DNA of 64,000 nt, taken from the NCBI GenBank assembly GCA_030038275.1, contig JASHPG010000100.1:32057-96056 (forward strand). Direction: 5' to 3'. Shown one piece after another: positions 3,263-45,148 of this stretch. The first letter of the stretch is position 1, and each line of letters opens with the position of its first letter. The notes under the pieces are model-generated. The model was not told where the DNA came from. It was given only the letters and a program-made list of their open reading frames with translations, and made no database searches. The stretch is from Candidatus Acidiferrales bacterium (GTDB lineage Bacteria > Acidobacteriota > Terriglobia > Acidiferrales > UBA7541). The translations under genes were made by a program, and so were the position numbers.

Positions 3263-4450
3263 TTACCGCAACGCCGCCACCTTTTTTTTCGCCGTTCGCC
3301 CGCGCTCAACTTCCGCCAATCCTTCCAGCAAATCCTCGACGAGATCCTCGTGGTTTTCGCATCCCGGCGAAAGCCGCAGCAGCATGTCCGAAAGCCCCAG
3401 TTCCGCGCGTGTCTCCGCCGGAATGGACGCATGCGTCATGCTCGCCGGGTGGCAGATCAGCGACTTCACTCCGCCCAGGCTTTCCGCCAGCGCGAAATAG
3501 CGCCTCGACGACGCGAACGCCACCACCTCTTCCTGCGTTCCTTCCAGTTCGAACGACACCATGCCGCCAAACCCGCTCATCTGTTTCCGCGCGATGTCGT
3601 GCCCGGGATGCGTCGCAAGGCCCGGGTAATACACGCGCCGCACCAGCGGATGCCCGTTCAGCGCGTTCGCGATTGCCTCGGCGTTTTCCTCGTGCCGCTG
3701 CATTCTCAGTTCCAGCGTTTTCATCCCGCGCAGCGTCAGCCAACAATCAAACGGCGAAGGAATTGCCCCCGTCGCATTCTGCAGATATTTTACCGGCTCG
3801 AAGATGTTCTGGTCGTTCGCCAGCACCGCGCCTTGCACCACGTCCGAGTGCCCCGCCAGGTATTTCGTCACGCTGTGGACGATCAAATCCGCGCCCAGCT
3901 CGAACGGCCGCTGAAACACCGGTGTCGCAAACGTGTTATCGACCACCATCAGCGCTCCACGCGCATGAGCGATTTTCCCGACCGCCTCGATATCCGTAAT
4001 CAGCAGCCGCGGGTTCGTTGGCGATTCGATCCACACGATGCGCGTCTTCGAATTCGTCGCTGCTTCTACGCCCTCCAGGTCGCTTGTGTCGATTTGCCGA
4101 ATCACCACGCCGATCGGCTGAAACACGCGGTTCAGAATGCGGTACGTTCCGCCATAGACGTCCAGTGGAATGATGATTTCATCGCCCGGCCGCAAATACG
4201 CCTGCAAAATTGCGTTTTCCGCCGCCAGTCCTGAAGAGTATGTCGCGGCATACTTCGCGCTCTCCAGTTCCGCCAACACCGTCTCCAGCCGCTCGCGCGT
4301 CGGATTATTCGTCCGAGAGTACGAATATCCTTTATCCTGTCCCGGCGCATCCTGCTCGTATGTGGACGTTTGAAAGATCGGCGCGATCAGCGCGCCGGTT
4401 TCCGGCTCTGATGGCTGCCCTGCATGAATAGTCTTCGTAGCGAGTTTCAT
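3263..4450 (-). CDS. PLP-dependent trans-sulfuration enzyme (cystathionine gamma-synthase/lyase family)
   Basis: TIHAGQPSEPETGALIAPIFQTSTYEQ; SVTKYLAGHSDVVQGAV (PLP lysine region); SLGGVKSLICHPASMTHASIP; preceded by a SAM-I riboswitch. Confidence 0.93.
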   Translation of the reverse strand: MKLATKTIHAGQPSEPETGALIAPIFQTSTYEQDAPGQDKGYSYSRTNNPTRERLETVLAELESAKYAATYSSGLAAENAILQAYLRPGDEIIIPLDVYGGTYRILNRVFQPIGVVIRQIDTSDLEGVEAATNSKTRIVWIESPTNPRLLITDIEAVGKIAHARGALMVVDNTFATPVFQRPFELGADLIVHSVTKYLAGHSDVVQGAVLANDQNIFEPVKYLQNATGAIPSPFDCWLTLRGMKTLELRMQRHEENAEAIANALNGHPLVRRVYYPGLATHPGHDIARKQMSGFGGMVSFELEGTQEEVVAFASSRRYFALAESLGGVKSLICHPASMTHASIPAETRAELGLSDMLLRLSPGCENHEDLVEDLLEGLAEVERGRTAKKKVAALR

Positions 4451-4562: not shown

Positions 4563-4639
4563 CACCTGCACTTACGCCCCGCATCGGCTACATTTGGGAG
4601 TGGAATCGTCAAGCGGCCGGGACGCGGCCAGTTGAGGAT

Positions 4640-4778
4640 CTTATCTCTCCCCCTGATCTCCCGGGTCGGCCTCTTCGGCGATCCGGGAGCCCTGTTACGG
4701 GCAGGAGTTAGCACCTTGGCGATTGCACCAGGTTGCTGTGGCTTCTTCGGGCCTGTACCCTCAGCCACTCTGGATAAG
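4640..4778 (-). promoter_or_regulatory. SAM-I (S-box) riboswitch aptamer
   Basis: Minus strand CUUAUCCAGAGUGGCUGAGGGUACAGGCCCGAAGAAGCCACAGCAACC...CAAGGUGCUAACUCCUGCC...GAUAAG: matches the S-box conserved core, and P1 closes CUUAUC/GAUAAG. Confidence 0.95.
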
Positions 4779-4872
4779 CGCTGCTGTTTCAGCAGCACCA
4801 AAATGCTAGCAAACACGCCGATTCGGGTCAATAAACATCCATTCGGGATGCGTTTTCGGTCGCCGTACTGCC

Positions 4873-29282: not shown

Positions 29283-30836
29283 TTACTGCATGCCGGATGT
29301 GCTGCGAGGAATCGCCGCAAGAACCTTCAGATCGAGATAACGGGTCAACTCGTCCGGCGTGTGAAACGATGAATCGAGACGGTCGGCCGCATACGCTGCT
29401 CCAATACCGGAAACACCGGCCGCAAACAATCCAGCAAAAAACATCCATCCAAAATGCTCGTCAGGGAGAGCCGGCGCGGCGGGCGCCTCTGCGATTGAGA
29501 CGTTTACGATTCGTCGGTCGTCCAGTGCGTCTGAAATGCGAGCTTCTTCACGCTTGCCGAGATACAAGAGATAATTGTCCTCCGCCGTTTTGACCGCGCG
29601 AGTAAGATCGGCTTCCGTTCGGTCGTCCGACTCAAGTCTTATGGCGGCGGTTTGATAGCGTCGAATCGTGCGCCGCATTGACTCCGCTTCGGCAGCAAAT
29701 TGCGCGCGATCGGCCTCAGCTTTGGCCATTTCCGTCGCGATCCAGTCCTGGGCGGGAACCCTGTCTGTGGTGACTTCAGAAACTGGCGATTGCTCAGCCG
29801 TCCAGATCGCCTTCTGCGTTTCCGCAATTTGCGTTTCAATATCCTTGACGGGCGGATAAGAAGGCGCGTATTTCACCAGCATGTCGGAATGCTTTAATTC
29901 GAGTGATAAAAGCGTGCTCTTGAGCTGCGCGAGCAATTGGGCGTTTCCGGTTTCCCGCATTTCGGTGGTTTGTCGTTTCGGCGAAGCTTGCTCTTCTTCA
30001 CGAAGGGCCTGTAAGCGCGCTGATGCGGCATCAGCATCGGATTCGTCCTGCTGCTGCTCGGCCTCGAACTTGCTCATCTGCTCGAGCGCTAATTGTTGTT
30101 CAACCGCTGGATCGACAGTTCCTTCACGACGATTGAATGAAATCTGCTGCGCTTCTGCGTCCGCGAGCTGCCGCTGGTACAGAGTGGTTTCTTGGTCGAA
30201 AAACGTGAAGCTTCCTGCGGGCCTGTGGACGGCCGCGTGCTTCTCCTGATAGAGGGTCGCAATTGTTCGCAGGACTTTGGCCGCCAGCCGCGGATCGCGC
30301 GAGGAGTAAGCGACCCGGATCACCGTCGTCTTCTGCAATGGCTCGACGGTAAGAGAATTGCGCAGATATCTTTCGGAACGGGCGAGCCGCACGGCTGGAG
30401 AGTCTTCGCCGAAAAAGAAGAAATGGTCACTTACACGTGTCCACCACGAGTACCGTGTCCGTTCGAGTCCACAGCTCAGAACAACCTCATTTAATAAATC
30501 GCGGCTGGTCAGCAGCTCGACCTCCGAATTCAGATCTTCCTGGGAAACGGAAGGGACAGGAGCCGCCTCGGTGGTAGGAGCCGGGCTAACGACGGAGTCG
30601 GCGCGATCGCGGTTCACAAAAATCTTCATCTCCGCTTGATATGTACGGGGCATCAGCAGTGCCGTCAGCATGATTCCGCCGAATACGCCTAGGAAAACCA
30701 GCAGAGCCATGTTTCGCTGCCGGAAAAGCGGCGCAACCGCGTCGCGCAGCGTTTTCCCCGGCGCCAGACCGCGCTCTTGGCGCAGCAAATTGACATCGCG
30801 GAAGACAAGATGTCGGTCGTGTGTTTCGTCGGTCAT
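29283..30836 (-). CDS. Wzz/GumC-type polysaccharide chain-length/transport protein
   Basis: TM near N-terminus (MALLVFLGVFGGIMLTALLMP), RTYQAEMKIFV, coiled coil, C-terminal TM (GWMFFAGLFAAGVSGIGAAY); adjacent to Wza and BY-kinase genes. Confidence 0.88.
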   Translation of the reverse strand: MTDETHDRHLVFRDVNLLRQERGLAPGKTLRDAVAPLFRQRNMALLVFLGVFGGIMLTALLMPRTYQAEMKIFVNRDRADSVVSPAPTTEAAPVPSVSQEDLNSEVELLTSRDLLNEVVLSCGLERTRYSWWTRVSDHFFFFGEDSPAVRLARSERYLRNSLTVEPLQKTTVIRVAYSSRDPRLAAKVLRTIATLYQEKHAAVHRPAGSFTFFDQETTLYQRQLADAEAQQISFNRREGTVDPAVEQQLALEQMSKFEAEQQQDESDADAASARLQALREEEQASPKRQTTEMRETGNAQLLAQLKSTLLSLELKHSDMLVKYAPSYPPVKDIETQIAETQKAIWTAEQSPVSEVTTDRVPAQDWIATEMAKAEADRAQFAAEAESMRRTIRRYQTAAIRLESDDRTEADLTRAVKTAEDNYLLYLGKREEARISDALDDRRIVNVSIAEAPAAPALPDEHFGWMFFAGLFAAGVSGIGAAYAADRLDSSFHTPDELTRYLDLKVLAAIPRSTSGMQ

Positions 30837-31561
30837 GGCTGTAGTTGGTAGTAAGCTCCGAACCCGGACGAGGGAATAAAGCGCTCAATTTTCGAAACGA
30901 CGTTTTTGGGCACGTACAGCATGTCTCCGGGCTGAAGTTCCGCGTCCTCCCGTTCACGGCCGCTAAAAATTCGCTTCAGATTGATGCGTGTGATTTCGTA
31001 TTGCGCATCGTCCACCCTGTGAAACAAGAGCGCTTGAGAGGTTTTTGCGGCGGCTGTCATGCCGCCGGCGATTGCAATCGCTTCGGTTGCTGACGTTGCG
31101 CCTCGCAGGTCATATTTCCCGGGATGGTTCACTTGTCCGGTAACGACAAAAAACGGCTTGTTGAAGTTCTTCAGTTCGACGGTAACAATTGGTTCGTGAA
31201 GGACTCCCGCGTAAGCGGCCTTGACCGCCGCAACAGCTTGTTCAGTGGTCAGACCCGCCAATCGGACATCACCAGCTCCTGTTAGGCTTGCGTAGCCATC
31301 CGGCTCGATGGTCACGTCCTGGTCAAACTCAGGAGTCAGCGGAAAAGCAATCGCAATTTCGTCGCTCGGGAATAGGCGGTATCTGCGATCGCGCGGCTGC
31401 AAAACGGGAGAGACACCGCTGCGGACGCTAAGGAAAGCCAAATTGCTCGTATGATCGGATGAACTCGAGGAGCCAGTGCGCGCCGCGGGGCAACTCGTCG
31501 CGAGCCCAGTTAATGTGGAGATAGCGATCAGCGCCACGATGCTGAGCCTCATATAGTGCAC
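30833..31561 (-). CDS. Polysaccharide biosynthesis/export protein (Wza-like, SLBB)
   Basis: YRLFPSDEIAIAFPLTPEFDQDVTIEPDGYASLTGAGDVRLAGLT; GQVNHPGKYDLRGATSATEAIAIAGGM; signal peptide. Confidence 0.9.
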   Translation of the reverse strand: MHYMRLSIVALIAISTLTGLATSCPAARTGSSSSSDHTSNLAFLSVRSGVSPVLQPRDRRYRLFPSDEIAIAFPLTPEFDQDVTIEPDGYASLTGAGDVRLAGLTTEQAVAAVKAAYAGVLHEPIVTVELKNFNKPFFVVTGQVNHPGKYDLRGATSATEAIAIAGGMTAAAKTSQALLFHRVDDAQYEITRINLKRIFSGREREDAELQPGDMLYVPKNVVSKIERFIPSSGFGAYYQLQP

Positions 31562-31929
31562 ACCATCACCGCCTCGCTGCGCACGGAAAATCCGCTATCG
31601 GCAGCGAGCGGCGGCTTCTCGGCTCGCAGCACACGCCCTTTCACGATGACGCACGAGACGCGGGCGTCGGCCGCGAACATCGGAAGTTGGATGCTGACTT
31701 GTACCCTATGCCCTGCCGAGGGAAAGGTCGAAGCAAATATGTATGCGCCGCCCGGGCTGATATCGCGAGTGTACCCACGCGACTGGTGCGCGACTCCGTC
31801 TTCCTCCACCCAGCTCACCACGACATCGGCTTGGAGCGCGTAGCGTATGGCGGACCGAAGATTTCTGCGAGAGTTAAAACCGCATAGACGGTCTCGGGAC
31901 TGCCGCAATGGACTTGGCGCCGGGCTCAT
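31549..31929 (-). CDS. PilZ domain protein
   Basis: RSAIRY (RxxxR) and TRDISPGGAYIFAS (DxSxxG), the canonical PilZ signature; first gene of the minus-strand EPS operon. Confidence 0.82.
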   Translation of the reverse strand: MSPAPSPLRQSRDRLCGFNSRRNLRSAIRYALQADVVVSWVEEDGVAHQSRGYTRDISPGGAYIFASTFPSAGHRVQVSIQLPMFAADARVSCVIVKGRVLRAEKPPLAADSGFSVRSEAVMVCTI

Positions 31930-32132
31930 GACGTGGACGGGAAGCTACGCTCGGAGAGCGTTCTTCGCAAGTGGCTGAATGTACCGCTGTGGCACAGCCA
32001 TGGTTCGAAGGCAGTCCACTTGTTTTTAAAAGGCCACTTGTTCTGGAGCCGTGTCCCTATCTGTCCCGGCTGAATGCAAAACCTGGCGACATTTCGTATC
32101 AGAAAGACGCGGGGACGCTAGGACAGAAGTAC

Positions 32133-32152
32133 TTAGGTACGAATGTACCTAA
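32133..32152. promoter_or_regulatory. Perfect dyad TTAGGTAC-GAAT-GTACCTAA, candidate operator
   Basis: 8-bp perfect arms, 4-bp spacer, in the 594-bp region between divergent EPS operons. Confidence 0.65.
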
Positions 32153-32523
32153 TTTTGGTGAATTACGAGGCCTTCTGCAGGCGTGAAGCGCATGGACTTC
32201 TCTCAAGTAGCCTTTAACCAAAAGCTGGCAAAGCAGTTACGCGCGTGCGAGTGTGTTCCAAATCGTGAAACGCTAATTTAACGTAATCCCGGAAGGTTGG
32301 CCCGAGCCGAATGTGGAAAGAACAAATCGCTGTCTAGCGGGGCCCCGGAAAGGCAATCACTCTCATCTGGTTGGCGGCTTGCCGATGAGCGAAAGTGGAC
32401 TTTGCCGTTTGCACCGACGCCTGCGCCCACACATCAAAAATCAGCATTTTTGTCTTGTATTAGCTCGATCGGTTCTCTAGAATGCGCCCACCTTCCAGAA
32501 CTCCAAAGCTGCAGAGGTGTGTT

Positions 32524-33222
32524 ATGGAGATGATGCAGCAATCGCGGAGCTCTGCCATCACGGTTTTCATCGCGGAATCCAACTACCTGAATTGTCAGTT
32601 GCTCGAATCGACGCTCCGCCGCAAGAACCGAGCCATCGCGATTGTGGGTTCGGAGATCGGACGCGAACGATCCCTGACCTTCATCGAGAAGCGCCAGCCT
32701 GACGTAGCTCTGATTAGCGCGCAACTCGAAGGAGGGGATCTCGACGGATATCACTTGATAAGCGAACTGCGCTCGATGCAGTGTCCGACGCGGGCAGTCC
32801 TTTTACTTGGCTCTCGCGAACGCGATCTCGTCATTGATGCGTTTCGTTGCGGTGCGCACGGGGTAATCTTTCGTGATGAACGGATCGAGACCCTTCGGCG
32901 CTGCATTCGCGCGGTGCATGATGGGCAAGTATGGGCGAACAGCGAACAGTTGCGATACCTGCTAGATGCCTTATATCACTCGATGCCGCCGAGTTTCCGG
33001 CAGAGTGCCAGGCTTGAGCTGCTTTCAAAGCGGCAGGCGGACGTTGTGAGGCTAGTTGCACAGGGCATGACCAACCGCGATGTGGCGGCCGAACTCGGAT
33101 TGAGCGAGCACACCATTAGAAACTACCTTTTTGAAATCTTTAACCGCGTGGGCGTCTCGACACGTGTGGAACTCGTCCGATTTTACATGCACAACGCTCA
33201 TCATGAGCAGCTAGCGGGGTAA
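32524..33222 (+). CDS. LuxR/NarL-type response regulator with degenerate receiver
   Basis: C-terminal LSKRQADVVRLVAQGMTNRDVAAELGLSEHTIRNYLFEIFNRVGVSTRVELVRF; receiver reads VFIAESN and PDVALISAQ (acidic pocket and phospho-Asp not conserved). Confidence 0.87.
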   Translation: MEMMQQSRSSAITVFIAESNYLNCQLLESTLRRKNRAIAIVGSEIGRERSLTFIEKRQPDVALISAQLEGGDLDGYHLISELRSMQCPTRAVLLLGSRERDLVIDAFRCGAHGVIFRDERIETLRRCIRAVHDGQVWANSEQLRYLLDALYHSMPPSFRQSARLELLSKRQADVVRLVAQGMTNRDVAAELGLSEHTIRNYLFEIFNRVGVSTRVELVRFYMHNAHHEQLAG

Positions 33223-33502
33223 ACTGCCGCAGCCACAGGTGAGTTGCCCTGAGGCTGCTCCCGTGATGCCAATAACATTATAGAGGGTTTGCCTGATAGT
33301 GCTGGTCTCGCGGCTCCTGCTACATAAAACAAGTATTCTATGGGCGGATGTTAGTGCGAATGTGTTCCCAGGCACCGCCCATCGCTCCGCTCCGCAGAGA
33401 CAGCAACCGACTCCCGGCCCGCTTGTAGAGCTGTTCCAAGCACGGCGTCAAACATTTTCGAATTCTCATCCCAATGGAAATTGAGAGGCGGCTCAGAAAG
33501 TC

Positions 33503-34207
33503 GTGAGTACCATACGGGTTGTGATCGTATTCCATAACCGGCTATTAAGAGACTCAATCGCCAGAATTTTGGGCAAGAGAACTGAATTCGAGGTCGTCGC
33601 GGCGCCGAACAGCGAGACACTTTCCTTGCACGAAGGGATTGAGGATCTCTCCGATGTGCTGCTTCTCGATTCATTAGAGTACTTGTTCGATTCTGCTCGC
33701 CAGAAGCTCGAGGGATGGTCAAGCCGTGCATTCAGGCCACTTCTGCTCGCGATGGAAGATGATCCGTCGCTTTTTTTGCGTGCAGTCCGAAGAGGTGCAT
33801 GGGGATACGTGCTGCAGGACGCATCGGCCGCCGATGTGGTTGCAGCAGTGCGCAGCGTCGCACAAGGCCAGGCGGTATGCCCTCCTCAATTCACTCGCTT
33901 TCTTTTCGAGTATATAGCCACGCAAACCGAGGAAATGCCCAGCAGCAGCCGGCGCAAGCGCTGGGGATTAACAAGACGCGAGCAACAATTGGTTCCTCTT
34001 ATTGAGCGTGGTTTAAGCAATAAAGAAATCGCAGGCTACTTCCATCTTTCTGAGCAAACGGTCAAGAATCACATTCACAGAATTCTTCGAAAGACTGGCG
34101 TCTCGGATCGGCTAGGCATTGGGGAAGTCTGCCGCGATTCGGTTTCTCCAATAGGTACCGAAAGCAGTACTCAGCCTAAGTTTGAAGTCAGTCGGGTACT
34201 ATCCTAG
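33503..34207 (+). CDS. LuxR/NarL-type response regulator, atypical receiver
   Basis: C-terminal LTRREQQLVPLIERGLSNKEIAGYFHLSEQTVKNHIHRILRKTGVSDR; N-terminal VVIVFHNRLLRDS, DVLLLDS. Confidence 0.87.
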   Translation: MSTIRVVIVFHNRLLRDSIARILGKRTEFEVVAAPNSETLSLHEGIEDLSDVLLLDSLEYLFDSARQKLEGWSSRAFRPLLLAMEDDPSLFLRAVRRGAWGYVLQDASAADVVAAVRSVAQGQAVCPPQFTRFLFEYIATQTEEMPSSSRRKRWGLTRREQQLVPLIERGLSNKEIAGYFHLSEQTVKNHIHRILRKTGVSDRLGIGEVCRDSVSPIGTESSTQPKFEVSRVLS

Positions 34208-34319
34208 ACCTACGTCCCACTTCTCGCTGATCCCATTCGATCTCCCGCAGTCGATAACGCTTAATTGAGCCTGTCGCGTTCCGCGATGTTCTCTCATACT
34301 CCCGCTGCGGAGGTGGACG

Positions 34320-34697
34320 ATGAGTGTGATTCGCGTGCTCGTGGCAAATCGTCACCGGCTGGTGCGCGAACTTATTGTCGCCTCTATCTCTGATCAACCA
34401 GACATTCAAGTAGTTCAGGAGATCGAACATGAGTCCGAAGTCGAGGACGCTATCGACCGAACACAGCCGGATTTTCTGATTGTTACTCTCGATCGGAACA
34501 GCGGATTGCCCGAGTTTTGTAATTTGATTCTACAGAAGCGCCCACAAATGAAGATCATCGCCATAGCGCCGGACCGGAATGTGACCGTCTTTTACTGGGC
34601 ATCCCTCCAAGTGAAGTCCCATCCCATAGAAGCTTCCGAGGCGGGCGTGCTGGATGCACTGCGAGGGATCGTGCGTCCGGCCGCGAGGATTCAATGA
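34320..34697 (+). CDS. Stand-alone pseudo-receiver domain protein
   Basis: IRVLVANRHRLVRELIVASISDQPDIQVVQE...PDFLIVTLDRNS; receiver-like without DD pair or Asp; no HTH; stop overlaps the next ATG. Confidence 0.7.
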   Translation: MSVIRVLVANRHRLVRELIVASISDQPDIQVVQEIEHESEVEDAIDRTQPDFLIVTLDRNSGLPEFCNLILQKRPQMKIIAIAPDRNVTVFYWASLQVKSHPIEASEAGVLDALRGIVRPAARIQ

Positions 34698-37600
34698 ACC
34701 GCCCGTTTAGTCTCGCTGAGCTGAGGTGCCATCACGGACTCCGCCCGTGCATGTCCGCAGCGTGTGTGGTGGTTCTGTTTCTTCTGTGCGCTTCAGCATC
34801 CGCACAGACGCAGGAGGCCGAGCCTGCATTCTCGTCGGAACTCGGACAGCAGAATCTGAGCCTTGTAGCGGCGCCCAGCGCTGATATCAAAGCTGTATTG
34901 ATCAAGGATCCTGGACTCATGGTTGAACTAAAGCGCTGGATCGCTGAAGACGCGACCAACCATGGCCAACTAGTGAGCGAGGAAGATTTAACCGACGACG
35001 CCGTATATAGCCGGCTTGACAGCGACGTTCACTTCCGAGGCATCGCGACTTTGCTGTTGCAGCAATACGGCTACCTTACGCCAACTGTGAACCCCGACTC
35101 GCCTATGGGCAAAGAGCAACAGCTGCTGATTCAAGAAAGAGTGAAGTGGATTTCTCAGGAAGAAGAAGAAGCTCGCGAGCAACAAGAGCAAGACCAGCAG
35201 CAGAAGGTCAAGCAGATAGAAAAAGCTCGCGCTTGCGCGGACGGAACTCGGACGGATTGCCCGCAGCAATCGCCTCAACCCCAATCCACACCGCCACTTC
35301 TGACGAATACTCCTACGCCTTCGCTCGAGCCGCCCACATCTCCGGAAGGAGAGCCTTTCGCACCGATTCCTACGCCACCCACCAGCCCGACTCCACCGGG
35401 AGGCGATAGTGGTTCGGTTGAGCTTGCGCAGCTTTTAAAAAACGGCGAAGGTAACAGTCCTGAACTCTCTGGATTGGGCCAACCATCTGGCGCGTCCCTC
35501 GGCGGGAGTTCCCTCGAAGGGATGGACGCTGGCCTCGCTACTCCGGGAGTCATGAACTCGCCCGCTTTCATGCAACGAACGACGGGCAGCGATTTTGGTT
35601 CTTCTGGCTCATCGCAAGGGCCTTTTTCGAGCGGCGGAGCAATGGGCCAATTCGGCGAGAGTTTTCTCGGCATGGGCGCAATTTCCCCTTTGCAGGCAGA
35701 TTTGTACTCCGCGCCCCAGCCCAAGGGACTGGAAATGATGTCTCCGGCCTATCCATCCGGCACGCCCGTGATTCCGCCACTGTCTTACAGTCCGTCCGTT
35801 CCGCCTTCATCGTCTGCGGAGGAGATGGTGATGGAGCGGGTCCCAAATCCTTACGGTGACATTCCATCGCTCTACGATCGCTATCTTCAAGCGCTGCCGC
35901 GTCCCGCATCACCGCAACGATTCGGCGCGAGTGTGTTCGAAAATGGAACGCGCGATCCGCAACTAATTCCCATGGACCTACCTGCGGGCCCGAACTACGT
36001 CGTTGGTCCTGGCGACAGCCTTTTGATCGATCTTTGGGGTGGTATCTCCAGTCGCATCTTCCGTACGGTTGACCGCGAAGGTCGCGTGACTTTGCCCGAA
36101 GTGGGGCCCGTGATGGTGAGCGGCAAAACTTTGTCCGACGCCCAACAGATCATTCAAAAAGACCTTCGAACTCAGTTCCGGGATATTTCGGCAGCCGTAT
36201 CGCTTTCTCGCCTTCGAACCATTCGCGTTTACGTCGTTGGCGATGTGGTGAAACCTGGTGCGTACGACATCAGCTCCTTATCCACGCCGCTGAATGCGTT
36301 ATTCGCGGCTGGCGGTCCGACTTCGACTGGCTCGTACCGCATCGTCGAGCACTATCGAGGCAACCAGCTCATTCAGACGGTTGATCTCTACGATCTGCTT
36401 TTGCACGGTGTCAGGTCAGATATTCAGCCTCTGACGAGCGGAGACACGATCATCGTGCCGACGATTGGACCGCAGGTTACGGTGGAAGGAATGGTTCGCC
36501 GCCCCGCAATTTACGAGCTCAAAGATGAGACAAACTTGCAGCAGGTGCTTGAATTGGCTGGCGGTTTACTGCCAATTGCCGCTTTGCGCCACATCGAAGT
36601 GCAGCGTCTGGTGGCTCATCAAAAGGAAACGATGCTCAGCCTCGACATTCCGGAAAGTGATGATAGTCAGCAAATCACAAAGGAACTCTCGACTTTCAAG
36701 GTGCAAGATGGTGATCAAATTCGTATTTTTCCGATTGCCCAAGGTAACGAGAACGCCGTTTACCTAGAGGGCCATGTGGTGCGCCCTGGACGATACGCGT
36801 ATCACTCCGGTATGACCGTTGCGGACCTAATCTCTTCCTTCAAGGAACTACTGCCAGAACCCGCTCTGCAGTACGCGGAAATCATCCGGCTCAACGAACC
36901 CGACTTGCACCCAACGGTGCAGAGTTTTGACTTGGCGAATGCGCTGGCGCATCCGTCACAAGCGCCGGTTCTCCATGCTATGGATACAGTTCGCATCTTC
37001 AGTCGCTTTGATTTTCAAAATCCACCAACAGTTGCCGTTCTGGGAGACGTACGTAAACCTGGAATCTACCGAACGTCGGGCGAAGTTCATCTGAGCGACG
37101 CAATTCATGTGGCCGGCGGACTCGCTCCGGATGCGGAAAGTGACGATGTGCAGATATTCCGAGATTTTCCGGACGGCAAAGCCCAGATATTCAGCGTGAA
37201 TCTGGCGGCGGCGCTTTCCGGTGATCCGTTGCAGAACATCATGCTCGACTCGCGCGACCGGGTTTTGGTCCACCAGAGTCCAAATGCCGCGCAGCCGGCG
37301 GTGGTTTACATCGAAGGCGCCGTCGAGCGCCCAGGACGATATCCGCTCACCTCTAATATGACCGTGGCCGATTTAATCCGCGTTGGTGGCGGATTACTGC
37401 CGAGCGCTGATACGCAAATCGGCGATCTCACCCGCTATCAGTGGGCTGGCCAGCGGAAACTCACAGGCGTGGCCGAGCCGATAGATCTGCGGGAAGCGCT
37501 CAATGGAAAGATTGGATCCAGTTCACCCCTTCGCAACGGAGATGTTGTCACCATTCGGCAGGTGCCGGGTTGGAATGATCTCGGCGCGTCCATAAAGATC

Positions 37601-38338
37601 ACAGGAGAAGTCGAGCACCCAGGAGCCTACGGGATCCGGCCGGGCGAGCGCTTGAGTTCTGTAATCGAGAGAGCCGGAGGGTTCCGCTCGGGCGCTTATC
37701 CTTATGGCGCAATTTTGCAACGAGTTGAGGTTCGCAGTTTGGAGCAGAAGCAACAAGATGAACTGGTTATGCGAGTAAAAGACGCCGAAGGAGAGTTGAC
37801 CAGTCTTCCCGAGGGTACTCCGCAGCAGCGGCAATCCCGGGATGCGGCGTTGGCGCAGTATCAAACCACCCTCACAGAACTTAGCACTTCATCGCCTGCC
37901 GGGCGAGTGACCATCCGTATATCGCCAAAAATAAAGCAGTGGAAAGGGACACCATCTGACGTCGAGGTTCGTGCCGGCGATACGCTATTTATCCCGAAGC
38001 GCCCAGACTTCGTCATGGTCACCGGGGAGGTGTTTGACCCAACCGCCGTTTCGTTCAGCCCCGGGCGGAGCGCGAAGTGGTACCTGGAGCAGTCGGGCGG
38101 CCCCACAACCCTGGCAAATAGAAAAGACATTTTCGTGATTCGCGCGGACGGCTCGGTGATAGGCGAGAAGAAGACGCTTTGGATCGGAGACTCATTGAAC
38201 GCAGTGCTTGAACCTGGTGACACAGTAGTTGTGCCGGAGAAGGCGATTGGCGGAGGCCCGAATTGGCAGAACATCTTCACGTCCGCGGAGCTTGCGAGCT
38301 CGATCACCAGCACTCTGTACATCGCGTTGCATTACTGA
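34694..38338 (+). CDS. Large multi-SLBB polysaccharide export protein (Wza-like)
   Basis: VGPGDSLLIDLWGGISSRIFRTVDREGRVTLPEVGPV; about seven SLBB-like repeats (GDVVKPGAYDI, GMVRRPAIYEL, GHVVRPGRYAY, GDVRKPGIYRT, GAVERPGRYPL, GEVEHPGAYGI, GEVFDPTAVSF); signal peptide; Pro/Gly-rich linker. Confidence 0.92.
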   Translation: MNRPFSLAELRCHHGLRPCMSAACVVVLFLLCASASAQTQEAEPAFSSELGQQNLSLVAAPSADIKAVLIKDPGLMVELKRWIAEDATNHGQLVSEEDLTDDAVYSRLDSDVHFRGIATLLLQQYGYLTPTVNPDSPMGKEQQLLIQERVKWISQEEEEAREQQEQDQQQKVKQIEKARACADGTRTDCPQQSPQPQSTPPLLTNTPTPSLEPPTSPEGEPFAPIPTPPTSPTPPGGDSGSVELAQLLKNGEGNSPELSGLGQPSGASLGGSSLEGMDAGLATPGVMNSPAFMQRTTGSDFGSSGSSQGPFSSGGAMGQFGESFLGMGAISPLQADLYSAPQPKGLEMMSPAYPSGTPVIPPLSYSPSVPPSSSAEEMVMERVPNPYGDIPSLYDRYLQALPRPASPQRFGASVFENGTRDPQLIPMDLPAGPNYVVGPGDSLLIDLWGGISSRIFRTVDREGRVTLPEVGPVMVSGKTLSDAQQIIQKDLRTQFRDISAAVSLSRLRTIRVYVVGDVVKPGAYDISSLSTPLNALFAAGGPTSTGSYRIVEHYRGNQLIQTVDLYDLLLHGVRSDIQPLTSGDTIIVPTIGPQVTVEGMVRRPAIYELKDETNLQQVLELAGGLLPIAALRHIEVQRLVAHQKETMLSLDIPESDDSQQITKELSTFKVQDGDQIRIFPIAQGNENAVYLEGHVVRPGRYAYHSGMTVADLISSFKELLPEPALQYAEIIRLNEPDLHPTVQSFDLANALAHPSQAPVLHAMDTVRIFSRFDFQNPPTVAVLGDVRKPGIYRTSGEVHLSDAIHVAGGLAPDAESDDVQIFRDFPDGKAQIFSVNLAAALSGDPLQNIMLDSRDRVLVHQSPNAAQPAVVYIEGAVERPGRYPLTSNMTVADLIRVGGGLLPSADTQIGDLTRYQWAGQRKLTGVAEPIDLREALNGKIGSSSPLRNGDVVTIRQVPGWNDLGASIKITGEVEHPGAYGIRPGERLSSVIERAGGFRSGAYPYGAILQRVEVRSLEQKQQDELVMRVKDAEGELTSLPEGTPQQRQSRDAALAQYQTTLTELSTSSPAGRVTIRISPKIKQWKGTPSDVEVRAGDTLFIPKRPDFVMVTGEVFDPTAVSFSPGRSAKWYLEQSGGPTTLANRKDIFVIRADGSVIGEKKTLWIGDSLNAVLEPGDTVVVPEKAIGGGPNWQNIFTSAELASSITSTLYIALHY

Positions 38339-40863
38339 CGACCAAAATCAACACCTGGAGGCGCTGGCTCGTGCTTAGTTGTTGTCTTCTCGCGGGAATC
38401 GATGGAGCAGGCCTGACCTGCCGGGCCCAAGTGTTGACTCAACAGCCGGGCGCAGCTTCTTCTTCATCCATCTCTAGTTCCTCCATAAAACGCGAGGGCA
38501 AAAACGCTCCTATTCGAAAGAAGAAAAATCGACCTTCTAAGCCAGACGACTCGTTCAATGTCGCCGATCCAACATTCAGCGCGCCGGACCCAACGAATGT
38601 CATTGGTCCGCGTTTACTGAAGAACATCGCTGATGACCAGGAGGCGATCTGGACTAGCCCAGCGCATTTGCGGGTGTCTGATGCCGATTGGCTGGTGCCG
38701 CTAGGGGCCATTACCGGGATTCTCTTGGCCACGGACTCCGAATTCAGCAAGCATTTGTCGAACTCGCCGAGTCGGCTAAACGAAAGCGACAATTTTTCGA
38801 ACGCCGGGATTGGCGCTCTAGTGGGCGCCGGAGCTGGCCTCTATCTATGGGGACGAATAACCCATGAGGACCACAAACGTGAGACTGGTCTGCTGGCAGG
38901 TGAAGCGGTGATTGATAGCTTGGCGGTCACATACGCCGCGAAATACGCGTTTCAGCGTGATCGCCCTTTGCAGGATAACTATCGCGGACAATTCTGGCAG
39001 GGGGGCACCTCATTTCCTTCGGAGCACTCGGCCGTAGCCTGGTCGATCGCCAGTGTGTTCGCCCACGAATACCCCGGACCACTGACTTCGACGCTCGCCT
39101 ACGGCCTCGCATCCGCCATCAGCTCATCGCGTGTAACCGCCAAGCAGCACTTCCCAAGTGATGTCTTAATCGGCAGCGCAATCGGTTGGCTCGTCGCCCA
39201 AGAAGTCTATCGGCACCATCACGATCCGGAGCTTGGCGGAGGAGCTTGGCCGACTTATGACGAAGTTCACGAGATGGTCGCCGGGCACTCGCCCGGAAGC
39301 ATGGGCTCGCCATACGTCGAACTCGACAGCTGGATTTATCCCGCCATCGAGCGCCTCGCTGCTTTGGGTTTCATCCACTCCGATTACCTAGGTACCAGGC
39401 CATGGACCCGCCTTGAATGTCTCCGGTTGGTGCAACAGGCCGGGGAGCAAATTCGCGCTGAGGAAGGCATTCCAAGCGAAGCCCAGCAACTGTACGACGC
39501 ATTATTAACAGAGTTCTATGGCGATCTCGAGCAACTGAACGGTAGCGGCGAAACGTCGGCGCATATCGAGTCAATTTACACGCGCACGGTCGGAATCAGC
39601 GGATCGCCGCTCAACGACAGCTACCATTTCGGTCAAACCATCATCAACGATTACGGTCGTCCGTACCAAGAGGGTTTCAACACGTACGACGGCTTTTCCG
39701 GCTACGCAACCGCCGGCCGATTCACGCTATACGTTCGCGGAGAATATCAACACTCGCCGTTTGCGCCACCATATTCGCTGCAAGTGCGCGAAGCGATTGC
39801 CAAAGCGGATGCCAACCCGCTTCAGGCGGCGACTCCGTTCGCACAGGTTGACCAATTTAATCTACTGGACACCTACGTCGCAGCAAATTACTCCGGCTGG
39901 GATTTTGCGTTCGGAAAGCAAAGCCTCTGGTGGGGACCTGGCGACGGCACGTCTCTGATATACAGCGACAACGCAGCGCCCATATATATGTTTCGCGGTA
40001 GCCGGATTTCTCCGTTCCGCATTCCGCTGCTTTCCGACGTTCTCGGTCCTTTCAAACTCGATTTCTTTGTCGGCAAGCTTTCGGGCAATCAGTTTCCGCC
40101 ACGGCCACTGATTCACGGCGAAAACGTCACCTTCATGCCAACTCGCAACTTACAGATCGGTTTCGACCGCCTGGTGGAATTCGGCGGAGTTGGCCGGCCG
40201 CTAACTGCGGGCGCGCTCTGGAACAGCTATCTTAGCGTGACATCGTCGGTGAACTACCGCGCGTCGAGAAATCCAGGAAAGCGGACTAGCGGCTTCTATT
40301 TGTCGTATCGCCCGCCACTTTTGCGGAACTGGCTCTCGGTTTACGGAGAGGCGTTGAGTGCTGACGATGTTACCCCGCTTGCAAACCCGCCACGAGCCGC
40401 ATGGAACTCCGGCATCTACCTGCCTCGCATTCCCGGCCTTCCGAGGCTCGATTTCCACGCGGAAGGAGGCTATACAGATGCTGATACGAGTAGGAGCAAC
40501 AACGGCGATTTCGTTTATTGGGACCTCTTTTATCACGACCTCTCAACCAACAAACGCAACCTGATCGGCAGCTGGATCGGCAGGGAAGGTAAGGGATACC
40601 AAGCATGGACGACCTACCACTTCAACGCTCGAAGTGATTTTCAGATTGGATTCCGCCACGCCAATGTCGCCAAGGATTTCATACCTGCCGGCGAGACGAT
40701 AACAGACGGCTACACCAACATAGGTTGGCAGTTTCCGGGCGGCGTGAGTATCTCAGGAGGTTTGCAGTACGAGAAGTGGCTCGCTCCCATACTAGCCCCA
40801 GACCCGCAGACAGACTGGACGGCGACCTTTCAGCTCGCCCTCTATCCCCATTGGAGCTGGTGA
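38263..40863 (+). CDS. PAP2-family phosphatase domain fused to Wzi-like capsule assembly outer-membrane domain (start uncertain, probably nearer 38330)
   Basis: KYAFQRDRP, FPSEHS, SRVTAKQHFPSDV (KxxxxxxRP/PSxH/SRxxxxxHxxxD) followed by a Wzi-like region (FAFGKQSLWWGPGDGTSLIYSDNAAPIYMFRGSRISPFRIPLLSDVLGPFKLDFFVGKL). Confidence 0.85.
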   Translation: MAEHLHVRGACELDHQHSVHRVALLTTKINTWRRWLVLSCCLLAGIDGAGLTCRAQVLTQQPGAASSSSISSSSIKREGKNAPIRKKKNRPSKPDDSFNVADPTFSAPDPTNVIGPRLLKNIADDQEAIWTSPAHLRVSDADWLVPLGAITGILLATDSEFSKHLSNSPSRLNESDNFSNAGIGALVGAGAGLYLWGRITHEDHKRETGLLAGEAVIDSLAVTYAAKYAFQRDRPLQDNYRGQFWQGGTSFPSEHSAVAWSIASVFAHEYPGPLTSTLAYGLASAISSSRVTAKQHFPSDVLIGSAIGWLVAQEVYRHHHDPELGGGAWPTYDEVHEMVAGHSPGSMGSPYVELDSWIYPAIERLAALGFIHSDYLGTRPWTRLECLRLVQQAGEQIRAEEGIPSEAQQLYDALLTEFYGDLEQLNGSGETSAHIESIYTRTVGISGSPLNDSYHFGQTIINDYGRPYQEGFNTYDGFSGYATAGRFTLYVRGEYQHSPFAPPYSLQVREAIAKADANPLQAATPFAQVDQFNLLDTYVAANYSGWDFAFGKQSLWWGPGDGTSLIYSDNAAPIYMFRGSRISPFRIPLLSDVLGPFKLDFFVGKLSGNQFPPRPLIHGENVTFMPTRNLQIGFDRLVEFGGVGRPLTAGALWNSYLSVTSSVNYRASRNPGKRTSGFYLSYRPPLLRNWLSVYGEALSADDVTPLANPPRAAWNSGIYLPRIPGLPRLDFHAEGGYTDADTSRSNNGDFVYWDLFYHDLSTNKRNLIGSWIGREGKGYQAWTTYHFNARSDFQIGFRHANVAKDFIPAGETITDGYTNIGWQFPGGVSISGGLQYEKWLAPILAPDPQTDWTATFQLALYPHWSW

Positions 40864-41042
40864 CGCCGGTCGCAACCCGAGATTCTTATGAACCGACTCC
40901 GCGATCTTCACGAATCAGTAGAGGAATCGTCACAAACTAAATTGCAGTCGTGGCGCGCGTGCCGCATCCGCGCGTTATCCATGCGACTTGCTTCGCCTTC
41001 CGGAACAGTTATGGGGGGCATCGCCGGCAAGAGAGTTTTCTG

Positions 41043-42485
41043 ATGCGTAGCCGCAAAGCGCCGCGACATTCGGACCTGCTCGTGGACGATTGGGAGCGGT
41101 CCGCCACGATCGCCGACCCCGAGATGGCTGCGGCCGCGCGCGAAAAGCGGCTGGCTCGAATGCGCCTTCTATGGGAGCGTCGCGCTCTGCTGGGCCGGGT
41201 CACGGCAATTGGCATCTTGTGCTGCACGGCGATCGCTTTCCTGATCTCGAACAAGTACACCTCGACCACTCGCCTGATGCCTCCCGATCAGGACAGCTCA
41301 TCAGGGCTCGGTATGATCGCTGAACTGTTCAGTGGCGGTAAGGGAGCCACAAGTGACACGCTGGGCAACCTTGCAGGCAACGCGCTTGGACTTAAAACCA
41401 CCGGCGCGCTTTTTATCGGAATTTTACAGAGCCGCACGGTGGAAGACGCTCTCATCGGCGATTTCAATCTAAGAAAAGTTTACGGCGATAGGCGTTGGGA
41501 AAAAGCGCGCAAACGTCTGGAGTCGAATACGAACATACAGGACGACCATAAGAGCGGAATCATCACCATCGCGGTGAGTGACAAAAACCCTCAGCGTGCC
41601 GCAGCTATGGCCGCTGCCTACGTGACGGAACTGGATCGAGTTGTGACACACCTCAATACATCGTCGGCTCACCGGGAACGGGTGTTTCTTCAGGGGCGAT
41701 TGCAGCAGGTGCAACAGAACTTGGAAGCAGATGAAAAGACATTCAGCCAATTTGCCAGCAAGAACAGTGCGATCGATGTCCCTCAACAAGGGAAAGCGAT
41801 GATCGAAGCTGCTGCGTCACTTGAAGGACAGTTGATCGCGGAAGAAACGGAGTTGCAGAGCTTGCGGCAAATCTACACCGACTCAAACGTACGGGTAAAA
41901 AGTATGGCCGCACAGGTCGCCTCGCTGCGGCAGCAATTGCAACAGCTGGGGGGAAAGGGAGCGGTCGATGACGCCGACTCCGATCAAAACGATCTCTACC
42001 CCTCAATCCGCCAGCTCCCGATTCTCGGCGTCACCTACGCCGATTTGTACCGCCGAACCAAGGTTCAAGAGGCCGTCTTCGAGACCCTTACGCGTGAATA
42101 CGAGATGGCAAAGGTTGAGGAAGCCAAGGAAACTCCCAGCGTGAAAGTCCTCGATCCCGCGAACGTTGCCGAAAAACCTTCTTCCCCTAATCGTTGGCTC
42201 ATCGTTTTTGGGGGAGGAGCTTTGTGCTTACTAGCGGCTGGGTGTTGGGTTCTCGGCGAAACGAAGTGGAACGAAATTGACCCCAACGACCCCGGGAAAG
42301 CGCTCGCTCAAGAGATTTTCGGTGCTACGAAAAACCAGTTCGCAACGTTCTCGCATGCTGTCGCCAAACTGAGGTTGCCGAAAGGCACCACCGAACATGA
42401 TGGCGACCAGTCAGCGGCAGATTCGGCACCAAGAGGGCACCGGTCAGCAGGAAGCGTGACCGGCCCAGGCCCGCAAGCTCATTAA
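41043..42485 (+). CDS. Wzz-type chain-length determinant family protein
   Basis: LISNKYTSTTRLMPPDQ; long coiled coil; VLDPANVAEKPSSPNRWLIVFGGGALCLLA. ATG at 41043 is the more plausible start within ORF 40950..42485. Confidence 0.85.
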   Translation: MRSRKAPRHSDLLVDDWERSATIADPEMAAAAREKRLARMRLLWERRALLGRVTAIGILCCTAIAFLISNKYTSTTRLMPPDQDSSSGLGMIAELFSGGKGATSDTLGNLAGNALGLKTTGALFIGILQSRTVEDALIGDFNLRKVYGDRRWEKARKRLESNTNIQDDHKSGIITIAVSDKNPQRAAAMAAAYVTELDRVVTHLNTSSAHRERVFLQGRLQQVQQNLEADEKTFSQFASKNSAIDVPQQGKAMIEAAASLEGQLIAEETELQSLRQIYTDSNVRVKSMAAQVASLRQQLQQLGGKGAVDDADSDQNDLYPSIRQLPILGVTYADLYRRTKVQEAVFETLTREYEMAKVEEAKETPSVKVLDPANVAEKPSSPNRWLIVFGGGALCLLAAGCWVLGETKWNEIDPNDPGKALAQEIFGATKNQFATFSHAVAKLRLPKGTTEHDGDQSAADSAPRGHRSAGSVTGPGPQAH

Positions 42486-42503: not shown

Positions 42504-43565
42504 ATGAACTGGAATGGCGTGCACGTCCTGGTTACAGGAGGAGCCTCGTTTATCGGATCAACTTTGGTCGATGCTCTTGTTGAGCGTGGCGCCAAAGTGC
42601 GCATCGTGGACAACCTCAGTAGCGGAAAACTCGAGAACATTGAAGGGCACGTGCGAGACAGGGGGGTGGAATTTCTCGAAGAGGATCTTCTGGACGATAA
42701 CGTTGCCGAGAAGTCGGTGCGCAACATCGAAATTGCTTTTCATTTGGCGGCCGATCACGGCGGTCGAGGCTACGTCGATCTGCATCAGGCCGCGTGTGCC
42801 GGCAACTTGGCCCTCGATGGCATATTCTTCCGTGCGTGCCGTCATGCTGGCGTCGATAAAGTCGTTTACGCGTCGTCCGGTTGCGTTTACCCCAATTTCC
42901 TGCAAACCCAACCTGACGAGATCCTCTACCTGAGCGAAGACAAGGTCGGTCCTCCGTACGATGCCGACAACATGTACGGCTGGGCCAAGCTTATGGCAGA
43001 GATGACTCTGCGGTCCTACTACAGCGACTTCGGAATGAAATCCGTCTCCTGCCGTTACTTTACTGTGTATGGGGAGCGCGGCCACGAAAATCATGCGGTG
43101 ATCGCGATGATCGCCCGCGCGTTTATCAAACAAGATCCTTACATTGTGTGGGGCAACGGTCAGCAAATTCGCAACTGGACTTACGTCCAGGACATTGTCA
43201 GCGGCACGATCCGCGCAGCCGAGGTCATCGACGACGCGACTGCCGTAAACCTCGGCACGATGGAGCGAACCCGCGTGCTCGACGCTGTAAGAGACGTCAT
43301 GGACTATACCGGTCATCACGCAACCGTCGAGCTCCATCCCGAAATGCCCACCGGCCCGATGAATCGTGTTGCCGACAATACACTTGCCTGCAAGCGGCTC
43401 GGATGGGAGCCAAAGATGAACTTCCGCGACGGACTTCATCGGACAATCGACTGGTACTTCCGCACCAAGAAACGCGAAGAAGTCGCCGCCGTCCTCAATC
43501 GTATGCTTACCGAGCGCGATTCTGTCGCAAGCGGCTCCCTCGAGGGCGTTGCTTCAGCTGACTGA
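42504..43565 (+). CDS. NAD-dependent epimerase/dehydratase (nucleotide-sugar SDR)
   Basis: VHVLVTGGASFIGSTLVDALVERGAKVRIVDNLSSG; MYGWAKLMAE; PYIVWGNGQQIRNWTYVQDIV. Confidence 0.93.
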   Translation: MNWNGVHVLVTGGASFIGSTLVDALVERGAKVRIVDNLSSGKLENIEGHVRDRGVEFLEEDLLDDNVAEKSVRNIEIAFHLAADHGGRGYVDLHQAACAGNLALDGIFFRACRHAGVDKVVYASSGCVYPNFLQTQPDEILYLSEDKVGPPYDADNMYGWAKLMAEMTLRSYYSDFGMKSVSCRYFTVYGERGHENHAVIAMIARAFIKQDPYIVWGNGQQIRNWTYVQDIVSGTIRAAEVIDDATAVNLGTMERTRVLDAVRDVMDYTGHHATVELHPEMPTGPMNRVADNTLACKRLGWEPKMNFRDGLHRTIDWYFRTKKREEVAAVLNRMLTERDSVASGSLEGVASAD

Positions 43566-45148
43566 TGCCCGAACGCGCCCAATTCGCCGAACCAGGCCGG
43601 TCATCTGCTGCAAACGCCGGAGTCGGGCGGATGCCGGACGCCACCCTGAGGAATCCGGATGTTTTCGCGTTTCCTCGGCCCGGAGTTGCCGAACCTCCGA
43701 TTTGGACCACGCGTCGCAAATCCAGGCGGCATGCGGGAGAGAGCGTCTGGCTACAGGTAGCGTTCGCACTGATCGACGTCGCTTTCGTGCTTCTTGATTG
43801 CGCGATTGCCTTCCTCATGCGTTTTGCGCGGGGAGGTTTATACGGTGTCTTGCTTTCCGGTCGATTGCAGCTGAATACCCATCAGCCGATCTCGCGATAC
43901 GTGGGTTTTCTGCTGCTCTATGTGGCCTTGGTTGTCATCTTCTGTAAATCCTATGATCTCTACCGAACTTCCAGGACCCGGCGTTTTCGAGAGGAGTCCT
44001 CCGCGGTTTTCGAAGCGGTTTTTCTGGCCACCTTACTTTTGGCCGCGTTCGTCTTTCTCTCGGGCATCAAAATCGTCTCGCGTTTCGTTGTCGCGGCCGC
44101 ATTCTGCCTCAATGTTCTTGCGCTTTCGTTTTGGCGCTATGCGCGCCGCCGCATCGTGATTCGCCGCGTGGAGAAGGGGATTGCCGTGCGAAACGCGGTA
44201 ATCATCGGAGCTGGCGAGGTCGGTCGTGCGCTGGCGCGCGTGCTGGATGGAAACAAGCTCCTGGGCTACAAAGTAAAGGGCTTTCTGGACGGCAAGCACT
44301 TGGATGAAGCGCGTGTCCTTGGACGTATCAGCGACCTCGTCCGTGTAGCGCGTGCCGAATTCGTGGACGATGTTTTCGTTACGATCCCCTCCGAGCGTGA
44401 ACTCGTCAAGCGCATTGCTCTTGAAGCGCGGACAAATCACCTGTCGCTTAAAATCGTTCCCGATTTCTACGACGGACTCACCTGGAACTCTCCCATTCAG
44501 CACCTAGACGATTTCCCAGTCATCGATCTTTGCTGGCAGCCGATTCCCACATTCTGTCTCTTTCTGAAGCGCGTCATGGACGTGATCCTTTCCGCCGTCG
44601 CGCTTGCGTGTTTTTCTCCTGTATTCCTAGTCCTCACGATCTGGGTCAAGCTCGATTCATCCGGCCCAGTAATTTATCGCGCCCCGCGCGTGGGCAGAAA
44701 AGGACGGATCTTCACCTGCCATAAGCTCCGGACGATGGTTCAGGATGCTGACCTCCTGAAGGATTCGCTGCGGTATCGCAACGAGCGCAAGGGCCCCTTT
44801 TTCAAAATTGCCCAGGATCCACGCATCACCCGCGCCGGAAGATTCCTGCGCAAGTATAGCCTCGACGAGCTTCCGCAACTCTGGGACGTTCTCAAGGGCA
44901 ACATGAGCTTGGTTGGGCCGCGCCCTCATCCGATCGACGACTACGCCAAATATAATCTCGAACATCTTCGTCGGCTCGACGTTAAGCCCGGCATCACTGG
45001 GCTATGGCAGGTGACCGCGCGCCAGGATCCCTCGTTTGAAACTAATTTGCGCCTAGACCTGGAATACATCGACGGCTGGAACCTGCTGCTCGATTTCAAA
45101 GTCTTGCTGAAAACGGCAGCTGTGGCGTTGAGCGGCACGGGACAGTAG
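43565..45148 (+). CDS. Exopolysaccharide biosynthesis polyprenyl glycosylphosphotransferase (WcaJ/WbaP-type initiating transferase)
   Basis: [97 protein letters not shown]. Confidence 0.96.

Follow-up and report, generated by a model that had tools for sequence, protein, structure and literature searches.

Three receiver-like genes lie side by side on the plus strand of the window, by which we mean the whole 64,000-nucleotide stretch of DNA analysed here. We call them P1 (32524–33222), P2 (33503–34207) and P3 (34320–34697). The host is represented by a draft genome of 4.07 Mb in 240 contigs that is 88% complete. Two genomes of the same class, G131 and G141, contain an exact match to a 16S segment that serves as an Acidobacteria probe site; this favours, though it does not prove, the phylum assumed in the earlier note. 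To the left of the three genes runs a minus-strand EPS operon, headed by a single-domain PilZ protein (31549–31929; Pfam PilZ, 28.8 bits) that is divergent from P1. The PilZ gene is accompanied by an EpsE-like polysaccharide export gene with Poly_export and SLBB domains (30833–31561), which is also found beside P1 relatives, and by a Wzz-like gene. To the right, P3, a stand-alone protein of 125 residues, is the first gene of a plus-strand EPS operon. Its stop codon overlaps the start (ATGA) of a Wza-like export protein with seven SLBB domains (34694–38338), which is followed by a PAP2–Wzi fusion protein (38263–40863), a Wzz-type chain-length protein (40950–42485), an epimerase and a large monotopic phosphoglycosyl transferase with Bac_transf and CoA_binding_3 domains (43565–45148).

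We place the start of P1 at 32524, because the alternative start, an in-frame ATG at 32482, overlaps with an element resembling a promoter (CTTGTA-18-TAGAAT; 32454–32483, plus strand) that is conserved in six loci of the same genus. A consensus scan for sigma-70 promoters returned none, and a riboswitch search of the regulatory region at gathering scores found none.

Receiver domains without a phosphorylation pocket

The three open reading frames occupy the positions given in the earlier note and are receiver-like, as it had described. P1 matches the Pfam families GerE (53 bits) and Response_reg (33.7 bits). The receiver of P2 is missed by Pfam; it aligns over its full length to VraR, NarL and DevR, and is followed by a GerE match of 48.7 bits. 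P3 matches Response_reg at 22.2 bits, below the cut-off. P1 and P2 are thus NarL/LuxR-type regulators with an intact helix-turn-helix (HTH) domain, which P3 lacks, in agreement with the earlier reading.

We aligned the receivers at the positions of CheY D12/D13/D57/T87/K109, with three canonical regulators from the same genome as controls. The pocket reads E/S/S/L/R in P1, F/H/D/A/Q in P2, with a methionine at T+1, and A/N/T/A/E in P3. The canonical DD, D, T and K are present in the controls and absent as a set from all three proteins, and P2 retains the aspartate alone. The loss of the acidic pair in each protein, claimed previously, therefore stands, but the triplets quoted for it in P2 and P3 (FHN and NRH) were one residue out of register. 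The phospho-acceptor is Ser in P1 and Thr in P3 and remains Asp in P2, again as first described.

None of 21 P1-family proteins has Asp at position 57. All of 39 P3 proteins share A9 and N10, and their phospho-acceptor position, Thr in the window, is mostly Ala in relatives. In the P2 family N12-R13 is invariant and the methionine at T+1 nearly so. Values of dN/dS for P2 and P3, in the pairs where they could be computed, range from 0.02 to 0.17, indicating purifying selection. Given this conservation and the low dN/dS, we regard the pocket losses as features of the families and not as decay.

An AlphaFold2 model of P3 has a receiver-like fold (pLDDT 76, pTM 0.73) with a low-confidence hairpin in place of helix 4, and among solved structures it is nearest to NarL-type receivers, LiaR for example (TM ~0.69). 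A strongly conserved stretch, FYWASLxIHS, lies at the α4–β5 face. The P2 model comprises a receiver and an HTH domain. Across the 96-kb contig we found no HATPase (kinase) match, consistent with the earlier statement that no histidine kinase is encoded nearby; the whole genome has 45 such matches. P1, P2 and P3 are pseudo-receiver domains without a working phosphorylation pocket, and the expectation that their degenerate receivers are unlikely to be phosphorylated is supported.

Two adjoining EPS control modules

The three genes had been proposed to form one module. Among 49 P3 loci, however, P1 lies near P3 in one, the window itself, and the triplet is found in no other genome of the set. Relatives of P1 were retrieved separately from the P3 loci and are divergent from PilZ-EpsE-Wzz operons: in 12 of the 18 loci with enough upstream sequence they face a PilZ gene, and in two more they face EpsE with PilZ undetected. 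P3 is directly followed by the SLBB export gene in 40 of 45 loci with enough sequence, and is adjoined by P2 in 35 of 46 (co-directional in 19, divergent in 16). These neighbourhoods assign P1 to the left module and P2 with P3 to the right. We conclude that the locus holds two separate EPS control modules that happen to adjoin, each dedicated to its own operon, so that the association of the regulators with EPS operons holds for P1 with PilZ-EpsE-Wzz and for P2 and P3 with the SLBB operon. Both modules share a layout in which a LuxR-type pseudo-receiver regulator stands beside an operon with a small one-domain head (PilZ or P3), followed by an export gene. Several P1-like genes occur per genome in G031, G041 and G044; each of the G041 copies examined (L101, L104 and L106) faces its own PilZ-EpsE-Wzz operon.

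The PilZ protein of the window keeps the RxxxR and D/NxSxxG motifs, as do all 13 PilZ proteins aligned (the window and 12 relatives). Since these motifs are retained beside P1 and the genome has ten GGDEF matches, c-di-GMP probably enters the left module through PilZ. The region between P1 and PilZ contains a palindrome, TTAGGTACGAATGTACCTAA, at 32133–32152, which occurs once in the 64 kb (expected 0.01). It recurs at locus L097; among genomes of the same genus it is kept in one, G017, and partly kept in others. A terminator-like match at these positions had first been read as chance; we rejected that reading in favour of a GTAC palindrome. The palindrome shares its GTAC core with the boxes upstream of P3 described below, with a different spacing (8 versus 11 bp), and is a candidate operator that may serve P1 or link the modules. 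A dyad scan upstream of the P1 family gave no conserved dyad above the null, and the GTAC pair is not enriched there.

P2 and P3 occur together

P3 is present in 53 of 151 relatives. A sample of 399 genomes from the class has it in 63 (15 of 136 genera, in four families). In a phylum sample, 6 of 396 genomes match P3 at E <= 1e-12, four of them outside the class and weakly. A P3 search of genome contigs gave a short Kocuria match alone, which was discarded. Across the 151 genomes, 51 have both P2 and P3, two P3 only, eight P2 only and 90 neither, a co-occurrence for which a Fisher p-value overstates the strength because the genomes are related. It also needs careful reading because remote P2 matches are mixed: we had taken them as moved orthologs, and rejected this when a tree showed that they include a distinct clade of paralogs as well as recent copies and moved orthologs. 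The P2 paralogs are located away from EPS genes.

In a distance-matrix analysis of 24 loci, the partial correlation of P2 with P3 given SLBB and Wzi was 0.51, a value reached in 0 of 5000 permutations; the correlation could reflect joint transfer instead of contact. The corresponding values were 0.28 for P3 with SLBB and −0.02 for P2 with SLBB. Two genomes, G007 and G019, retain the SLBB gene without P2 and P3. On co-occurrence and correlation, the earlier suggestion that the third protein serves as a regulator's partner is likely to be right, with P2 as the best candidate for that regulator. Eleven loci have no intact P2 next to P3; in several of these P3 still accompanies SLBB, and some of the genomes concerned hold just a P2 paralog, so P3 may act elsewhere too.

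The P2 gene adjacent to P3 in G022 (L051) looks truncated or decayed, and intact P2-like genes lie elsewhere in that genome. Loci L169–L188 carry P2-like atypical regulators away from EPS genes, some of which (L170 and L181) are divergent from very large unannotated proteins. Tandem duplicated P3 genes are found in two genomes, G065 and G082 (L044, 8980–9797; L043, 40–1061).

A candidate operator upstream of P3

The pattern GTAC-N5..9-GTAC occurs in 26 of 49 P3 promoters, against an expectation of 0.6 (sd 0.8). A spacer of 7 dominates, so that RGTACY boxes recur every 11 bp and are helically phased, with as many as four successive boxes in G282. A second element, TTGANYCT, is found in 28 of the 49, where 1.5 would be expected, and lies some 55 nt upstream of the called start. 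An unbiased dyad scan placed GTAC-N7-GTAC (19 of 47 P3 promoters; null maxima 5–7) and TTGAACCT at the top. The strict form RGTACY-N5-RGTACY is almost confined to this promoter: a genome has between 0 and 5 copies, and of the 14 copies in five genomes, 9 lie at the P3 promoter.

In the window, a box pair, GGTACC-N6-AGTACT, falls inside the 3′ end of P2 (34154–34171), followed by a third box, GGTACT (34195–34200), also within P2, and by ATTGAGCCT (34264–34272, plus strand), a copy of the TTGA(A/G)(C/T)CT element. In G007 and G019, which keep SLBB but lack P2 and P3, the region upstream of SLBB has no GTAC pair. The pair is also rare in front of P2 genes, with one case at P2 itself and one at remote P2 copies. 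The exact pair is missing from about half of the P3 promoters; G023 retains the boxes with a P2 paralog alone, and G058 has the pair without a close P2. A variant array, GGTCA-N5-GGTA, is found in one branch of P2 relatives, and the correlation of box type with the P2 recognition helix is weak (p = 0.07), which makes a link between the two only suggestive. From the position of the boxes, the co-occurrence and the HTH domain of P2, we infer that P2 binds the RGTACY boxes. This conserved candidate control site at the P3 promoter is apparently unreported.

Proposed mechanism and alternatives

Our preferred interpretation, which we consider about evenly balanced between right and wrong, is that P2 would be a phosphorylation-independent activator of the P3-SLBB-Wzi operon with P3 as its partner, and P1 the equivalent for the PilZ-EpsE-Wzz operon. 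P2, a LuxR-type factor, would recognise the phased RGTACY boxes without Asp phosphorylation and switch on the P3-SLBB-PAP2/Wzi-Wzz operon. As the product of the operon's first gene, P3 would bind the P2 pseudo-receiver and tune P2, whose output would thus track the operon expression already reached. P3 might in this way exert feedback or serve as a co-activator, in the manner of the BldM/WhiI heterodimer. P1 would be an Asp-less regulator of the divergent operon, to which PilZ would supply c-di-GMP. The input to such a module would be protein contact, a ligand or expression level and not a local kinase. More tentatively, and with the balance somewhat against it, P2 and P3 might form a two-part kinase-free switch, in which a DNA-bound pseudo-receiver senses, through a helically phased and near-private RGTACY operator, the level of a stand-alone pseudo-receiver made from the head of the operon that it controls; PilZ would then hold the place of P3 in P1 modules.

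The main alternative for P3, which we rate as fairly unlikely, is that P2 is a plain transcription factor and that P3 acts post-translationally on proteins of EPS synthesis, the large phosphoglycosyl transferase encoded in the P3 operon being one potential target. In Myxococcus xanthus, the single-domain response regulator EpsW activates the initiating phosphoglycosyl transferase EpsZ (PMC12802240), an instance of a lone receiver driving EPS synthesis, and P3, too, is a free-standing protein of the receiver type that is associated with a Wzx/Wzy EPS pathway. P3 is linked to the SLBB operon and often retained when the adjacent P2 is lost; the window's right operon includes a large transferase of this kind, and several P3 genes elsewhere also have one close by. 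However, EpsW needs phosphorylation on Asp to work, whereas P3 has no Asp at that position, and P3 co-evolves more with P2 than with SLBB or Wzi.

That P3 or P2 switches the operon directly on binding a small ligand (c-di-GMP or a precursor of EPS, for instance) seems to us improbable. The strong conservation of FYWASLxIHS in P3 would suit it, and the pseudo-receivers ShkA, JadR1 and RedZ bind ligands according to a 2025 review (PMC12632262). VpsT and CsgD resemble P1 and P2 as LuxR-type proteins with degenerate receivers tied to matrix polysaccharide; they differ in that P1 and P2 are each dedicated to one adjacent operon. The c-di-GMP-binding motif of VpsT and CsgD is W[FLM][TS]R, after α5. 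At the matching place P1 has WANS and P2 has CPPQ, so the motif is absent from both, which argues against this route.

We also give little credence to the proposal in the earlier note that the three regulators form one island coordinating both EPS operons. They are adjacent in the window, and the palindrome in the P1–PilZ promoter region (in the window and G017) has a GTAC core akin to that of the P3-promoter boxes, but every other P3 locus is without P1 nearby, and the palindrome differs in spacing and is degenerate in the other genomes of the genus. Finally, it is very doubtful that P2 still works, weakly, as a classical response regulator, with a distant kinase phosphorylating D56 and P3 competing for that kinase. 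D56 is kept in P2 and most relatives, K109 in many relatives, and HATPase matches are plentiful in the genome, but P2 has lost both T and the acidic pair, its copy in the window also lacks K, Met is at T+1, several members of the family lack the Asp, and the contig is without a kinase.

Relation to known regulators

P1, P2 and P3 belong to a known class, the atypical response regulators. Like the bacterial pseudo-receivers termed PsR, ARR or ALR, as covered in a review (J Bacteriol 2025; PMC12632262), they lack the required active-site residues, and all are orphans; the passages of the review consulted describe no pairing of a pseudo-receiver transcription factor with a stand-alone pseudo-receiver encoded at the head of an operon. 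By analogy, the nearest precedent for P2 and P3 would be BldM and WhiI, orphan atypical response regulators of Streptomyces that form a heterodimer (PMC4125116, PMC12632262). In both cases there are two atypical, kinase-less response regulators, one working, or in our case proposed to work, with the other. WhiI carries its own DNA-binding domain, whereas P3 has none and heads the operon under control. The left operon head resembles PilZ c-di-GMP receptors that control EPS in keeping both PilZ motifs; here, in contrast, PilZ and the Asp-less NarL-type regulator that faces it form a conserved pair. The literature searched, in which subscription journals are thinly covered, contained no EPS regulator of this type in Acidobacteria.

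How bacterial pseudo-receivers are switched is an open question, as stated in the 2025 review (PMC12632262). The present set, conserved in dozens of genomes, comprises a pseudo-receiver transcription factor, a pseudo-receiver partner, a candidate operator and a single target operon, and because it is compact and conserved, activation without phosphorylation could be tested with a handful of parts. The set also offers a handle on exopolysaccharide control in bacteria that appear to be Acidobacteriota, a phylum common in soil and hard to grow.

Two further features of the window lie outside the regulatory region. In the right operon, the PAP2 phosphatase domain is fused to a Wzi capsule-assembly barrel, and this fusion adjoins the SLBB gene in many relatives. 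A SAM riboswitch (RF00162, 69 bits) lies at 4638–4780 on the minus strand, upstream of a minus-strand gene at 3263–4450.
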